Shown here: in pieces, positions 16,705-20,964 of the stretch
Position numbering within the stretch: the stretch's first letter is position 1
Layout: every line of letters starts with the position of its first letter
Virus record (IMG/VR): IMGVR_UViG_3300017764_004284
Coordinates: 1 to 20,964 of that record
Length of the DNA: 20,964 nt
Origin: a virus
Strand: one strand, 5' to 3'
Position numbers and translations under genes: made by a program
The notes under the pieces: model-generated
Told to the model about the DNA's origin: nothing
Seen by the model: only the letters and a program-made list of their open reading frames with translations
Databases searched by the model: none

Positions 16705-17130
16705 TTATTTTTTACCGTAATTAAAATCTCCTGTTTTAAGTCGTTGTAATATATTAAATTGTCTATCAGTTGCCAAACTATTTTGTCTTTTAACAGAATT
16801 TATTATTCCTTGAAGGTATTCTCTTTGAGAATAAGAATAACGATTCATGTCTAACAATTGTTGATAATATTTAATATTTTTTATTTCATGTTTTCTATCT
16901 GGGAGTTCTGTTAGGAAGGAAAGAAATTCATTTATGATTTGTTTATGTCTAGGGGAAGTGTTGGTTGTTTTTTTTATGATTTCATAAAGGTTTTCTTCTG
17001 TTTCATTTAAAACATTAAGAGAATCTATAACATCTTCAGCCTCATCAGATTCTCCTTCTTTACCATAATCAGATAAATCATTTAAATATAAAGTAGTTAA
17101 TTCGTTTAAATTATTTTTTGAAAGCTTCAT
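16705..17130 (-). CDS. Small helical protein, function unknown
   Basis: This 141-residue, mostly helical protein has an acidic N-terminal half (YGKEGESDEAEDVIDSLNVL). Its basic C-terminal half ends LATDRQFNILQRLKTGDF. The 'LTxRQxxhLxRhK.GDF' ending resembles a short motif seen at the ends of several phage accessory proteins, but I cannot tie it to a function. There are no Cys clusters, no catalytic motif and no membrane segment. It overlaps the DUF6884-like gene by 20 bases and is followed after five bases by the P-loop kinase, so the three form one tight unit. It could be a partner of either neighbour. Confidence 0.68.
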   Translation of the reverse strand: MKLSKNNLNELTTLYLNDLSDYGKEGESDEAEDVIDSLNVLNETEENLYEIIKKTTNTSPRHKQIINEFLSFLTELPDRKHEIKNIKYYQQLLDMNRYSYSQREYLQGIINSVKRQNSLATDRQFNILQRLKTGDFNYGKK

Positions 17131-17593
17131 ATATATATTTTTTTATTTCTGTAAAAATTTCTTGTAATTTATTTAATTGTTTATTTAACCATTGTAATCT
17201 TTCACCAAACCTTTTTCCTACCATTGGAACTTCTATATTTTGTTGTGGGATATAATTTAGTAAAGGTTTAATATATTCATTACCTGCCAAAAATATAAAT
17301 TTATCTTCCTCAAAATTTAAACCTTTTTGTTTCATTTCTTTATAAGTTTCTTCTCCCCATTTATCTTTTTCTTCTTTTTTAAAATCTTTTAAAGTTAAAT
17401 CATAAGGTTTTAATATTTTATTTAACGGAACTAAATGGTATTTAGCAGATAAAATATACATTTTATCAGGTTTAAGACTTTTACCATATTCTAATGTTTT
17501 TTGAAACATTGGGGAAGCAGAGTAAAGTTCTTGAGCTGGGGCAGGGTATGGGGTTTTAGATTTAGTGCAACTTAATAATACTATATTAGCCAT
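17111..17593 (-). CDS. DUF6884-like protein
   Basis: This 160-residue protein starts MANIVLLSCTKSKTPYPAPA, followed by ELYSASPMFQKTLEYGKSL, MYILSAKYHLVPLNKILKPY and FIFLAGNEYIKPLL. The Cys-Thr-Lys-Ser-Lys opening, the 'APAxELYxxSPhFxKxLxYA' helix and the 'hYILSAKYxLhPLxxxhxPYDxTL' strand are the marks of the DUF6884 family. Related domains are found in phage and bacterial proteins, sometimes beside 7-deazaguanine base-modification enzymes, but no reaction is established that I know of. No queuosine- or archaeosine-type gene is visible in this window. It has the exact 14-base promoter-like motif upstream and starts the three-gene unit. It could be a nucleotide- or base-binding enzyme; function is open. 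Confidence 0.78.
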   Translation of the reverse strand: MANIVLLSCTKSKTPYPAPAQELYSASPMFQKTLEYGKSLKPDKMYILSAKYHLVPLNKILKPYDLTLKDFKKEEKDKWGEETYKEMKQKGLNFEEDKFIFLAGNEYIKPLLNYIPQQNIEVPMVGKRFGERLQWLNKQLNKLQEIFTEIKKYIYEAFKK

Positions 17594-17600
17594 TTAGGTT

Positions 17601-17614
17601 TTTATTATAAATAT
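17601..17614 (-). promoter_or_regulatory. Late-promoter-like AT motif upstream of the DUF6884-like gene
   Basis: The minus strand reads ATATTTATAATAAA, identical to the motifs at 549-562 and 3710-3723. It starts inside the upstream gene's stop and ends seven bases before the ATG at 17593. Both here and at 549 the longer string TAATATTTATAATAAA is present. Confidence 0.52.
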
Positions 17615-18675
17615 TAATAAGTTTTTATTTTTTCAATATAATTATGTTTTAAAAGAATATTCATATGAATTCTAAAACAATTCATAAATATTTGTGAATA
17701 GTGGGGATATTGATTTATTATTGTAGGTAAAAATGTTTCAAATTTAACCTCATGATTTTTAGTATAAAAAATATGTATATGTTTTTTTATATTTTTATAT
17801 AAAAGTTTAGTAGCTCCTTTACTATTATGTTGTCTTAAAAAATAAAAATAATTATAAAGATATATTAAATAAGGTTTAGATGATTCAAATTCCATATTAG
17901 TTAAAATTTCTTTAGCTATTTGAATAGTAGAATAATCAGTATTATTTATCATATTAATTATATTTTCAAAAATATCCTCATCTATTGTTAATTCTTTATT
18001 TATATCTTTATCTATTTGATTATCAAATATTAAATTAATATTATAAGTTTTTATTTTTTTAAATAAATTTATAAAAAAATCTACATTTTTAATTGCTTTA
18101 GATTTTCCCCAATCGTCATTTACTAAATAATGATTTACTAAAGGATAATTATCTATTATAGAAAAATTAGAATCTATAGAAATTAACTCATCTTTTGTAG
18201 TTGGAGAAATAAAAACATAAGATGCAGCTTCTATTGTTTTATGGTTAAATAACCAATAATCATCATCTTTTGGAATATACCTTTTAAAAGTTGGATTTTG
18301 ATAAAAGATATCAATTGGTATTTTATACCAAAGATTTGGAGAATGTAAATAAGATTCTGAGATGAAATTATGGTTAATAATAAAACTATCTAATTCTGAG
18401 ATTTTTCTGGTTAGTTTTATATTTAGATTATTTTCTTCTATATAATTTTTTAATTTAAAAGAAGCGTATTCTGATAAAGGGGTTAAATAAATGTTTTTGT
18501 TAGGTTCAAGTTTATTATTTTTATTAGCTTCATATAGTTCTTTATATTCATCTATTATTTCTTGTGTTATATACCCAAATATATTTTTACTTGTAGTAAA
18601 AAATGTTTTGTGACCTTTACTAGGATCTTTATATTTAATAGGTCTTTGATGGTAATGTAATACTACTCCTAACAT
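17614..18675 (-). CDS. Unknown third gene of the metallopeptidase-VWA/MoxR cluster
   Basis: This 353-residue protein matches no family I recognise. It starts MLGVVLHYHQRPIKYKDPSK and is rich in Ile, Asn, Lys, Tyr and Phe, partly because this is among the most AT-rich stretches of the window. Visible parts are EASYVFISPTTKDELISIDS near the middle, an Asp/Lys-rich NLIFDNQIDKDINKELTIDE segment, and an aromatic helical C-terminal half (KPYLIYLYNYFYFLRQHN, HYSQIFMNCFRIHMNILL). It has no P-loop, HExxH or membrane segment. It starts four bases after the MoxR-like ATPase gene stops, so it is almost certainly cotranscribed with it. This makes it a candidate substrate, adaptor or regulator of the AAA+/VWA pair; that is inference from context only. 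Confidence 0.75.
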   Translation of the reverse strand: MLGVVLHYHQRPIKYKDPSKGHKTFFTTSKNIFGYITQEIIDEYKELYEANKNNKLEPNKNIYLTPLSEYASFKLKNYIEENNLNIKLTRKISELDSFIINHNFISESYLHSPNLWYKIPIDIFYQNPTFKRYIPKDDDYWLFNHKTIEAASYVFISPTTKDELISIDSNFSIIDNYPLVNHYLVNDDWGKSKAIKNVDFFINLFKKIKTYNINLIFDNQIDKDINKELTIDEDIFENIINMINNTDYSTIQIAKEILTNMEFESSKPYLIYLYNYFYFLRQHNSKGATKLLYKNIKKHIHIFYTKNHEVKFETFLPTIINQYPHYSQIFMNCFRIHMNILLKHNYIEKIKTY

Positions 18676-18679
18676 AATT

Positions 18680-19864
18680 TTATTTGCTTAAAAATTTAAT
18701 TAATACTTTATCTAACATTAATAACTTAAATGATGATGGGTTCCCACTATAAATTGATTTTATTATGTTGTATTTTAAATCCATAGTAAATAATTCTTCA
18801 TTTATTAAAAATGATAAACGATTTATAAAAGATTTTTCAATTTTATTATTTTTACTATAATATAAACTATAATTAATAAGTCTAGTTGAAATAATTGAAG
18901 CTAAATCTGCTCTATAATTTTTATCTTTACCCATTACTCCTTTTAAAGTATTTAAAATATATTCTTCATTTTCATGAGTTAATATATCTTTAGGTGAAAT
19001 AATTTTATCTAATTTATTATTAATAAACATTGTAAATAATGTTGTAAATTCAGAACCTACAGATCCTTCTCCTATTAATTGTATTAAATATAAATTATCT
19101 TGAAATGAAGGAATTGATGAAATTGAATTAAAAAATGTTGTTATGCTTCGTGAATTAGTTTTAGTTGAAATTAATTCAGGATGTTTTAAAAGAAAATTAA
19201 TACATCTATTATCAATATGATTATTTTCTGCCCAAGTACTCCAACAATTTATATCAAATTTTAAATTAATTGATATAAATCGAGTTTTTTGTGCATTATC
19301 TATACTATTAACTAAATACTCACCATTATCTGGGTTGGATGTAAGAATTATATGCCAATCTTTGGGTAATGACCAGCTTATATATTGTTGTCGATCGATT
19401 AACTCCATAATAGCTTGAATAAATCTTACATCTGCTCTATTCCAATCATCTAATAATAATATTCCTCCATTATCCTTTCCACTTATCCATTCAGGAGGAC
19501 AATAACTCATTCTATTTTTTCCTGTAAATTTATATCCTTGTTTAGTATATTCGGTAACAGCATGTTCATCAATCCATATACAATCATTATTAGTTAAACA
19601 TACTTCAAATTGTCTAATAGGAAATCCAACTAAATCTCCTAATTCTTCAATTTGAGCTAAATTTAATTTAATAAAATTTAAATCTAATTCTTTAGCTAAT
19701 TGTACAATAGTGGATGTTTTACCAATTCCAGAATCACCTATTAATTCAACAGATACATTTGGTTTATTATTTTGTTGTAAATAACGGTTATTAGAAATAA
19801 TATGTTTTAGAAAATCTTTTGTTTCTTTAATATTTAAAGAAACCTGAGAGGTTTGTTGTGACAT
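18680..19864 (-). CDS. MoxR-like AAA+ ATPase
   Basis: This 394-residue AAA+ ATPase of the MoxR type has Walker A GDSGIGKT (43-50) and Walker B GILLLDD (134-140) followed by WNRAD. It has sensor 1 TSNPDN (175-180), the KTRF basic element (193-196), and a helical lid domain to the C-terminus. The 'LLLDDhNRAdxxhxxAhxELhdxxxY' helix after Walker B is the MoxR/dynein-clade insert. MoxR ATPases form hexameric chaperones that remodel partners and are nearly always paired with VWA-domain proteins. Here the VWA gene lies immediately upstream, 41 bases away, which supports a functional pair. Family assignment is strong; target is unknown. An AT-rich motif at 19879-19893 lies upstream. Confidence 0.88.
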   Translation of the reverse strand: MSQQTSQVSLNIKETKDFLKHIISNNRYLQQNNKPNVSVELIGDSGIGKTSTIVQLAKELDLNFIKLNLAQIEELGDLVGFPIRQFEVCLTNNDCIWIDEHAVTEYTKQGYKFTGKNRMSYCPPEWISGKDNGGILLLDDWNRADVRFIQAIMELIDRQQYISWSLPKDWHIILTSNPDNGEYLVNSIDNAQKTRFISINLKFDINCWSTWAENNHIDNRCINFLLKHPELISTKTNSRSITTFFNSISSIPSFQDNLYLIQLIGEGSVGSEFTTLFTMFINNKLDKIISPKDILTHENEEYILNTLKGVMGKDKNYRADLASIISTRLINYSLYYSKNNKIEKSFINRLSFLINEELFTMDLKYNIIKSIYSGNPSSFKLLMLDKVLIKFLSK

Positions 19865-19878
19865 AACTTTTATTTTTT

Positions 19879-19893
19879 AATATATATAAATAT
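19879..19893 (-). promoter_or_regulatory. Divergent copy of the AT promoter-like motif upstream of the MoxR-like gene
   Basis: The minus strand reads ATATTTATATATATT. It shares ATATTTATA with the other five copies, then diverges. It lies in the 41-base gap between the VWA stop and the ATPase ATG, about 14 bases from the start. It is the weakest of the six copies. Confidence 0.35.
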
Positions 19894-19905
19894 ACAAAAA
19901 ATACT

Positions 19906-20964
19906 TTAAGAAGCCAAATTCATTTTAATTGTAGGCCCCCAACCATCTTGTTTAATTTTCTCAATAGATGCTCCTTTAGGACTTAAAACCATTAATGTGG
20001 GTTTAAATGTTTTTATAGTATTATTTCCTATATACCCATCAGTTAATATAATTAAATTAGTATATTGTTTATTTTTATTAAAATGTTCTATAAATATGTT
20101 CATATCTGTTCCACCTCTACCTTGAACAAATTCAGGTATTTTACCATGATATGTATAAACATTATGGATATTAGCATCACCTTCAGCTATAGTGATATTA
20201 ACTCCTGATTTATGCATATGATAAATTTCATTAAAAAATCTTGCTAAATCATGTTTATTAACTGATCCTGAAGTATCTACTCCAACTAAGATGCATTGTT
20301 TGGGTTTGACTTTTAATGAAGGATTTCCTGTAAATCTCTTATTGGGTTTTCTCCGAGTTTTTTTAGTTTGGATTTGGGAACCTCTACTAAAAAATTTTCT
20401 AAAATATAATTTCCAATCATATGATGGAGGTTTAACTATAAATAAAGTATCAATATGATCTTTTAATTCAGATGGAATAAAAGATTGATTATTCTTATTA
20501 GAATCAACTATGTTTTTAATTTGATGATTAATTTGAGATTTAACAAGCTTTTTATTAGCTTCAGATAATTTTTCAAACTCTTTCCATGTTATATGAAAAC
20601 AATCTTTTTCCATTAAATTATTTAAAGTTTGGCATAAATTTTGTTTATAAGCTTGTTGTAATAACTTATAATATTTTTTAGTACCTGCTTTTAAAGGTAA
20701 ATTTAATTTAGGAAAAGTAGATGGTAATAAAATATCATTAGTAGGATAATAATGAGGATCAATATATTGATTTATTTCAATATCAGCAGCTATATTATAA
20801 AGTTTATGATTAGAAAAATTATTTCTATCTAATAAATGATTAAAAACTATATGAAGTAATTCATGTTTAATTAAACCTATTTTTTTATTATCATTATCTA
20901 AAGATTCCCAAAAATTAGGATTAACTATTAATTGATAATTAATATTAAATATATTAACACCTGC
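19906..20964 (-). CDS. Zinc metallopeptidase-VWA fusion protein (DUF2201-like), 5' end outside the window
   Basis: I read this frame by hand past the first visible Met at 20613. It stays open for 117 further codons to the window edge, so the true start lies beyond 20964. The N-terminal part has KHELLHIVFNHLLDRNNFSN, with HExxH at 20865-20851, followed by NIAADIEINQYIDP, the expected third-ligand region. This is the putative metallopeptidase domain of the DUF2201 family. The C-terminal part is VWA-like, with a MIDAS-type CILVGVDTSGSVNK (Asp codon at 20277-20275), EFVQGRGGTDMN and LIILTDGYI. Such proteins pair with MoxR ATPases, as here with the gene at 19864-18680. Catalysis is expected but unproven; the substrate is unknown. 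At least 352 residues are present. Confidence 0.86.
   Translation of the reverse strand, partial: AGVNIFNINYQLIVNPNFWESLDNDNKKIGLIKHELLHIVFNHLLDRNNFSNHKLYNIAADIEINQYIDPHYYPTNDILLPSTFPKLNLPLKAGTKKYYKLLQQAYKQNLCQTLNNLMEKDCFHITWKEFEKLSEANKKLVKSQINHQIKNIVDSNKNNQSFIPSELKDHIDTLFIVKPPSYDWKLYFRKFFSRGSQIQTKKTRRKPNKRFTGNPSLKVKPKQCILVGVDTSGSVNKHDLARFFNEIYHMHKSGVNITIAEGDANIHNVYTYHGKIPEFVQGRGGTDMNIFIEHFNKNKQYTNLIILTDGYIGNNTIKTFKPTLMVLSPKGASIEKIKQDGWGPTIKMNLAS

Follow-up and report, generated by a model that had tools for sequence, protein, structure and literature searches.

Group 2.2 jumbo phages carry a MoxR ATPase together with a metallopeptidase-VWA protein, a pair that was described in 2021 and for which a role in virion assembly has been proposed (PMC7824862). 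We analyzed a virus record of 20,964 bases (IMG/VR record IMGVR_UViG_3300017764_004284, referred to at its full length as the window) that carries such a pair at its upstream end, accompanied by a third gene; the three genes are called the trio below. What is new here is not the pair itself, which was already known, but its association with an obligate, fast-evolving third protein within an accessory cassette. In the jumbo phages, as in the window, the AAA+ ATPase is adjacent to a VWA protein whose N-terminal domain is a metallopeptidase, but the consulted part of that paper mentions no third component. The N4-like phages keep gp24 and gp25 as core genes (PMC4193335), and a Schitoviridae example (L146) likewise has the ATPase (phrog_1297) near a metallopeptidase-VWA gene (phrog_1314); however, there is no recognizable third protein, and these genes are core, whereas the trio is accessory. 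A viral MoxR ATPase with a VWA partner is also found in Acidianus two-tailed virus (ATV p618 and p892), where p618 is a virion component linked to tail development (PMC4124505), although this pair is without the peptidase domain according to PMC7824862.

Among cellular systems, the bacterial three-part VWA-MoxR-VMAP and related systems are conflict systems (PMC7159879). They share with the trio a three-gene core of ATPase, VWA protein, and a more variable third protein, but the trio is phage-borne, has its N-terminal peptidase fused to the VWA domain, and has no C-terminal effector. In NorQ/NorD, the VWA partner is reported to insert a finger into the pore of the MoxR-type hexamer, whose ATP hydrolysis then works this partner (PMC9976466, PMC13036017). 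An AAA+ ring driving a VWA partner is probably the mechanics that the trio shares with NorQ/NorD and other cellular MoxR-VWA remodelers; the partner domains differ, however, and metal insertion is unsupported for the trio.

Linkage of the three genes

Environmental viral contigs were searched with the third protein, the ATPase, and the third proteins of other clades. Without duplicates, these searches yielded 124 distinct loci; as genes of the trio served as the queries, they are a non-random sample of metagenomic loci related by descent. The trio was complete in every one of the 89 loci with room to show it whole. The other 35 are incomplete, and each is cut off, by the end of the contig or of the stored piece, no more than 200 bases from the trio. 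No third protein without the pair was seen in environmental viral loci of sufficient length, so that the suggestion of an earlier note on this DNA, that the third protein belongs to the pair, has held wherever the locus was long enough. All 11 long trio-positive records have a single copy of each gene. The gene order is VWA-ATPase-third in the clade of the window; three other clades have the orders third-VWA-ATPase, ATPase-third-VWA, and VWA-extra gene-ATPase-third, respectively. Because these four arrangements exist, the linkage is more than inherited gene order, and its survival through reshuffling is good evidence of joint function. Clades other than that of the window have the trio at different genome positions as well, and the "head-gene block" to which the earlier note had assigned it is not supported.

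The pair does occur without a recognizable third protein: this is so in six phage loci, cultured or long, and in two bacterial-looking records, and the third-protein profile gave nothing significant on any of these (E > 0.4). The two bacterial-looking records, which have MoxR-DUF2201 pairs, are listed as phage but were rejected as such.

An accessory, all-or-none cassette

The trio is an accessory cassette that is present whole or not at all. Relatives without it were obtained through a terminase search, and one of them (L202, in the 156-kb record G001) is very close to the window, with 94.9% identity in TerL, 94.3% in the prohead protease, 91.4% in PhoH, 89.3% in the portal, and 81.2% in the major capsid protein; in profile searches of the whole G001 record all three trio genes were absent. 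An FAD (flavin adenine dinucleotide)-oxidoreductase gene precedes the VWA gene in the trio-positive locus L004. In 20 out of 20 trio-less loci with enough sequence, this gene lies within ca. 2.4 kb of a NadR-like kinase, and the site of the trio is therefore visible without it. We also compared gene content piece by piece between G008, five other trio-positive records, and the trio-less G001. Among the 209 proteins of G008, 56 were matched in all five other trio-positive records. G001 has a match for 52 of these, and the remaining four, the trio and a DUF6884 protein, have none there. Since DUF6884 is found without the trio and the trio without DUF6884, the unit consists of the three genes.

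Two further candidates were discarded. A 1,089-residue protein that seemed to co-vary with the trio, as a candidate client, proved to have a homolog in the trio-less G001 when an iterative profile was used. A 93-residue open reading frame, first thought to be trio specific, has a similar frame with another start codon in L202 and was dropped in a later comparison.

Contrasting rates within the trio

Compared with the window, the ATPase has a median identity of 80%, the portal of 70%, TerL of 67%, the VWA protein of 61%, and the third protein of 33%, i.e., the trio contains both the most conserved gene compared and the least conserved one. The ratio of nonsynonymous to synonymous substitutions (dN/dS), as a median over 76 non-independent pairs, follows the order third protein (0.38), VWA protein (0.19), ATPase (0.12), and TerL (0.11). 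Pairwise distances are nevertheless correlated at 0.75 to 0.85 within the trio versus 0.43 to 0.64 with TerL, and the trio is therefore co-inherited more tightly than with the phage backbone. One pair of loci (L032 and L045) has a synonymous distance of 0.06 to 0.11 across the trio and of 0.61 in the terminase, which suggests recombination of the trio as a unit.

The three proteins

The features of the trio and its neighbors are collected in Table 1. The metallopeptidase-VWA protein passes both Pfam models, DUF2201_N (43.3 bits, cut-off of 23.2) and DUF2201 (41.7 bits, cut-off of 26.4). Its relatives begin ca. 40 residues earlier, the contig end having removed this many N-terminal residues. 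The earlier note had read an HExxH and a VWA domain of the metal ion-dependent adhesion site (MIDAS) type, with DTSGS, GGTD, and LTDG, in one protein; all these motifs were located, and conservation of the HExxH and MIDAS residues, which the note had made a point to check, was found to be nearly complete. HELLH and the MIDAS motif DTSxS are each kept in 87 of the 88 distinct homologs, and so neither is a chance occurrence. The conserved HExxH makes cleavage likely, not certain. The VWA domain is the end of the protein, with no C-terminal effector domain. The name "HNH endonuclease," which PHROGs gives to this family (phrog_1314) and which some phage records carry as well, was rejected, as Pfam finds no HNH domain and the protein is a metallopeptidase-VWA instead.

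Table 1. Coordinates of the trio, its motifs, and neighboring or related genes (positions in the window unless a locus is named)
Feature	Position	Strand	Remarks
Metallopeptidase-VWA protein (DUF2201_N + DUF2201)	19906..20964	minus	352 aa; 5' end open at contig end
HELLH	20851..20865	minus	Putative zinc-peptidase motif, VWA protein
DTSGS	20263..20277	minus	MIDAS motif of VWA domain
GGTD	20104-20115	minus	VWA domain
LTDG	20035-20046	minus	VWA domain
AT-rich gap between VWA and ATPase genes	19865..19905	minus	41 bases
MoxR-like AAA+ ATPase	18680..19864	minus	394 aa; phrog_1297
Walker A GDSGIGKTS	19712-19738	minus	ATPase
Walker B ILLLDDWNRAD	about 19430-19462	minus	Asp replaces catalytic Glu
Third protein	17614..18675	minus	353 aa; starts four bases past ATPase gene
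Alpha/beta segment	18283..18495	minus	Third-protein residues 61-131; BRCT-like element order, BRCT identity not proven
Helical C-terminal domain	17641..17988	minus	Third-protein residues 230-345
DUF6884 (YaaA-like) protein	17111..17593	minus	Usual trio neighbor in window's clade; also present without trio
~121-residue extra gene	L126 5418-5783		Similar in L159, L161, L171, L173-L176
Nucleotidyltransferase-like protein	L191 4381-5094; L198 9237-9908; L142 10223-10945		By eye

The second protein had been described as a MoxR-type AAA+ ATPase 41 bases downstream. The gap and the AAA+ assignment stand (AAA, 24.8 bits with a cut-off of 21.2; AAA_5, 22.4 bits with a cut-off of 22), but "MoxR" may be too strong. 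In favor of the name, a VWA partner is encoded beside the ATPase, as expected of the MoxR family. However, AAA_3, the Pfam model often used to recognize MoxR proteins, stays below its cut-off (20.7 against 27), and the Walker B motif, usually Asp-Glu, is Asp-Asp in 103 of the 104 homologs from the trio; for these reasons "MoxR-like" is the safer name. Walker A was found in 98 of the same 104 homologs. Asp-Glu is present in the five comparison proteins with a recognizable motif, and the Asp-Asp variant looks like a mark of the subfamily.

The third protein, which the earlier note had correctly placed four bases after the ATPase gene, is unmatched in Pfam, PHROGs, and PADLOC, among the sequences of solved structures, and in cultured phages searched by tblastn. 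No relative was found in bacterial genomes either, with one short pattern as the sole query. An AlphaFold2 model built with 67 sequences (mean predicted local distance difference test score of 88.4) is alpha/beta in its front part and helical in its back part. In a fold search of BFVD, it matched four viral proteins at E < 0.001, none of known function, which come from a tailed phage that is uncultured, a crAss-like phage (ctYsL76), and a podovirus (Podoviridae ctz6O13); the same search of the PDB gave nothing significant. The order of elements in the front part resembles BRCT, and this was checked with Pfam, with a profile-profile comparison against ten ligase BRCT domains and shuffled controls, and with a fold search of the domain alone. 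The best full-length Pfam BRCT score was 15.4 bits, below the cut-off of 21.3, and in a per-domain scan unrelated families scored as high, i.e., the match is weak. By hhalign the segment aligns in register with BRCT (P of 0.094, or 0.005 for a small subclade; probability of 0.6 to 7%), and the best PDB fold match of the alpha/beta segment is a BRCT pair (E of 0.45). After these tests, a BRCT identity is suggestive only. In Moorella phage MTATph1, the pair is also followed by a protein of 353 residues, but no relationship of this protein to the third protein could be detected. In the third-VWA-ATPase clade, the VWA and ATPase genes have between them a gene of ca. 121 residues that is similar to the third protein's helical C-terminal part.

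Genome setting and expression signals

The window has a T4-like gene set on the minus strand: terminase, portal, major capsid protein, PhoH, and prohead protease (the last read by eye). Next to the trio come the DUF6884 protein, a 141-residue protein, and the NadR-like kinase. The DUF6884 protein, a frequent but not obligatory neighbor, matches the PADLOC candidate-defense model PDC-M57A (E of 3.7e-48). A protein resembling a nucleotidyltransferase (by eye, with no Pfam match) adjoins the trio in two of the arrangements. Flavobacterium phage immuto has the closest terminase among cultured phages (57% identity), and we infer that the host is probably a flavobacterium or a relative. Immuto is not among the listed matches of the ATPase search of cultured phages, and none of the cultured phages found carries the trio.

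The octamer TATAAATA, that of T4 late promoters, lies within 150 bases upstream of 20 of 83 VWA genes and 14 of 93 ATPase genes, against ca. 2.5 in random windows, all these counts resting on related, AT-rich sequences; in 150-base windows upstream of the third gene it was never found. L004 has a terminator-like hairpin upstream of the VWA gene. This suggests a transcription unit that begins at the VWA gene and is perhaps late.

Possible function of the trio

Judging from sequence patterns and from analogy, we tentatively read the trio as one accessory machine that would remodel or degrade host proteins, with the third protein choosing the target. By comparison with the MoxR-VWA pairs already known, the AAA+ ATPase would assemble into a ring, with the metallopeptidase-VWA protein docked on it through the VWA domain; movement driven by ATP would then either remodel a protein that is bound or pass it on to the zinc-peptidase site. 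The third protein would serve as the adaptor: its alpha/beta front would bind the target or a tag, and its helical back would dock on the pair. A constant motor combined with a third part that changes fast is the pattern expected of a target selector. The target would most likely be a host-cell factor, for takeover or counter-defense, because close relatives without the trio still encode the same conserved virion proteins. A narrower version seems doubtful to us. In it, the trio is an adaptor-directed, ATP-driven metalloprotease encoded by the phage, with an almost constant ATPase and a well-conserved peptidase part, whereas the third protein evolves fast to keep up with shifting targets in the host or its defenses.

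Several observations weigh against a host-directed machine. No PADLOC or other defense or counter-defense model matched the trio convincingly. The median dN/dS of the third protein is below 1, and its fast evolution may reflect relaxed constraint and not an arms race. The octamers before the VWA and ATPase genes also fit an assembly role, although they are weak evidence, and so does the position of the trio of one clade near late sigma-factor-like and baseplate-like genes (by eye). Finally, the comparison of gene content used a single near-complete trio-less genome (G001), in which a fast-evolving tail or fiber client could be missed. We still rank a host-cell target ahead of virion assembly, non-proteolytic activation, and counter-defense or superinfection, in that order; these readings overlap, and all of them are predictions.

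A chaperone and peptidase of virion assembly, which would remodel or trim a structural protein during morphogenesis, is in our opinion unlikely, even if it has precedents in the proposal for the jumbo-phage pair (PMC7824862) and in the ATV p618-p892 data reviewed in PMC4124505. Besides the late-type signals, the trio is near the terminase and portal in the clade of the window, but this location is not conserved. Help in virion assembly was also among the uses offered in the earlier note, and it fares badly against the trio-less phage whose terminase, portal, and prohead protease are nearly identical to those of the window, since the lack of the cassette there argues against a conserved assembly role; none of the conserved structural genes co-varies with the trio. 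Somewhat less likely again would be a non-proteolytic remodeling chaperone. Here the HExxH fold would have a structural or regulatory part, and an enzyme of the phage or the host would be activated or given its cofactor by the machine, in the manner of NorQ/NorD with nitric oxide reductase. MoxR-VWA pairs of known function are mostly remodelers (PMC9976466, PMC13036017), and an FAD oxidoreductase adjoins the insertion site, but it is retained where the trio is absent, and HELLH is near-invariant. A counter-defense or superinfection system acting on other phages or on bacterial defenses is improbable, for although the trio is like the ternary systems of PMC7159879 in its all-or-none presence and in the variability of its third component, and the neighboring DUF6884 protein matches a candidate-defense model, the trio has no sequence match to the bacterial VWA-MoxR ternary systems, its VWA protein is without a C-terminal effector, and DUF6884 does not always accompany it.

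For the MoxR-VWA pairs of tailed phages, the literature searched offers no tested function, assembly being the proposed role. An all-or-none cassette that is missing from near-identical phages makes this proposal testable and points to the host cell instead. If the third protein is indeed the target selector, its variation across many environmental phages would map what these phages must disarm or reshape.

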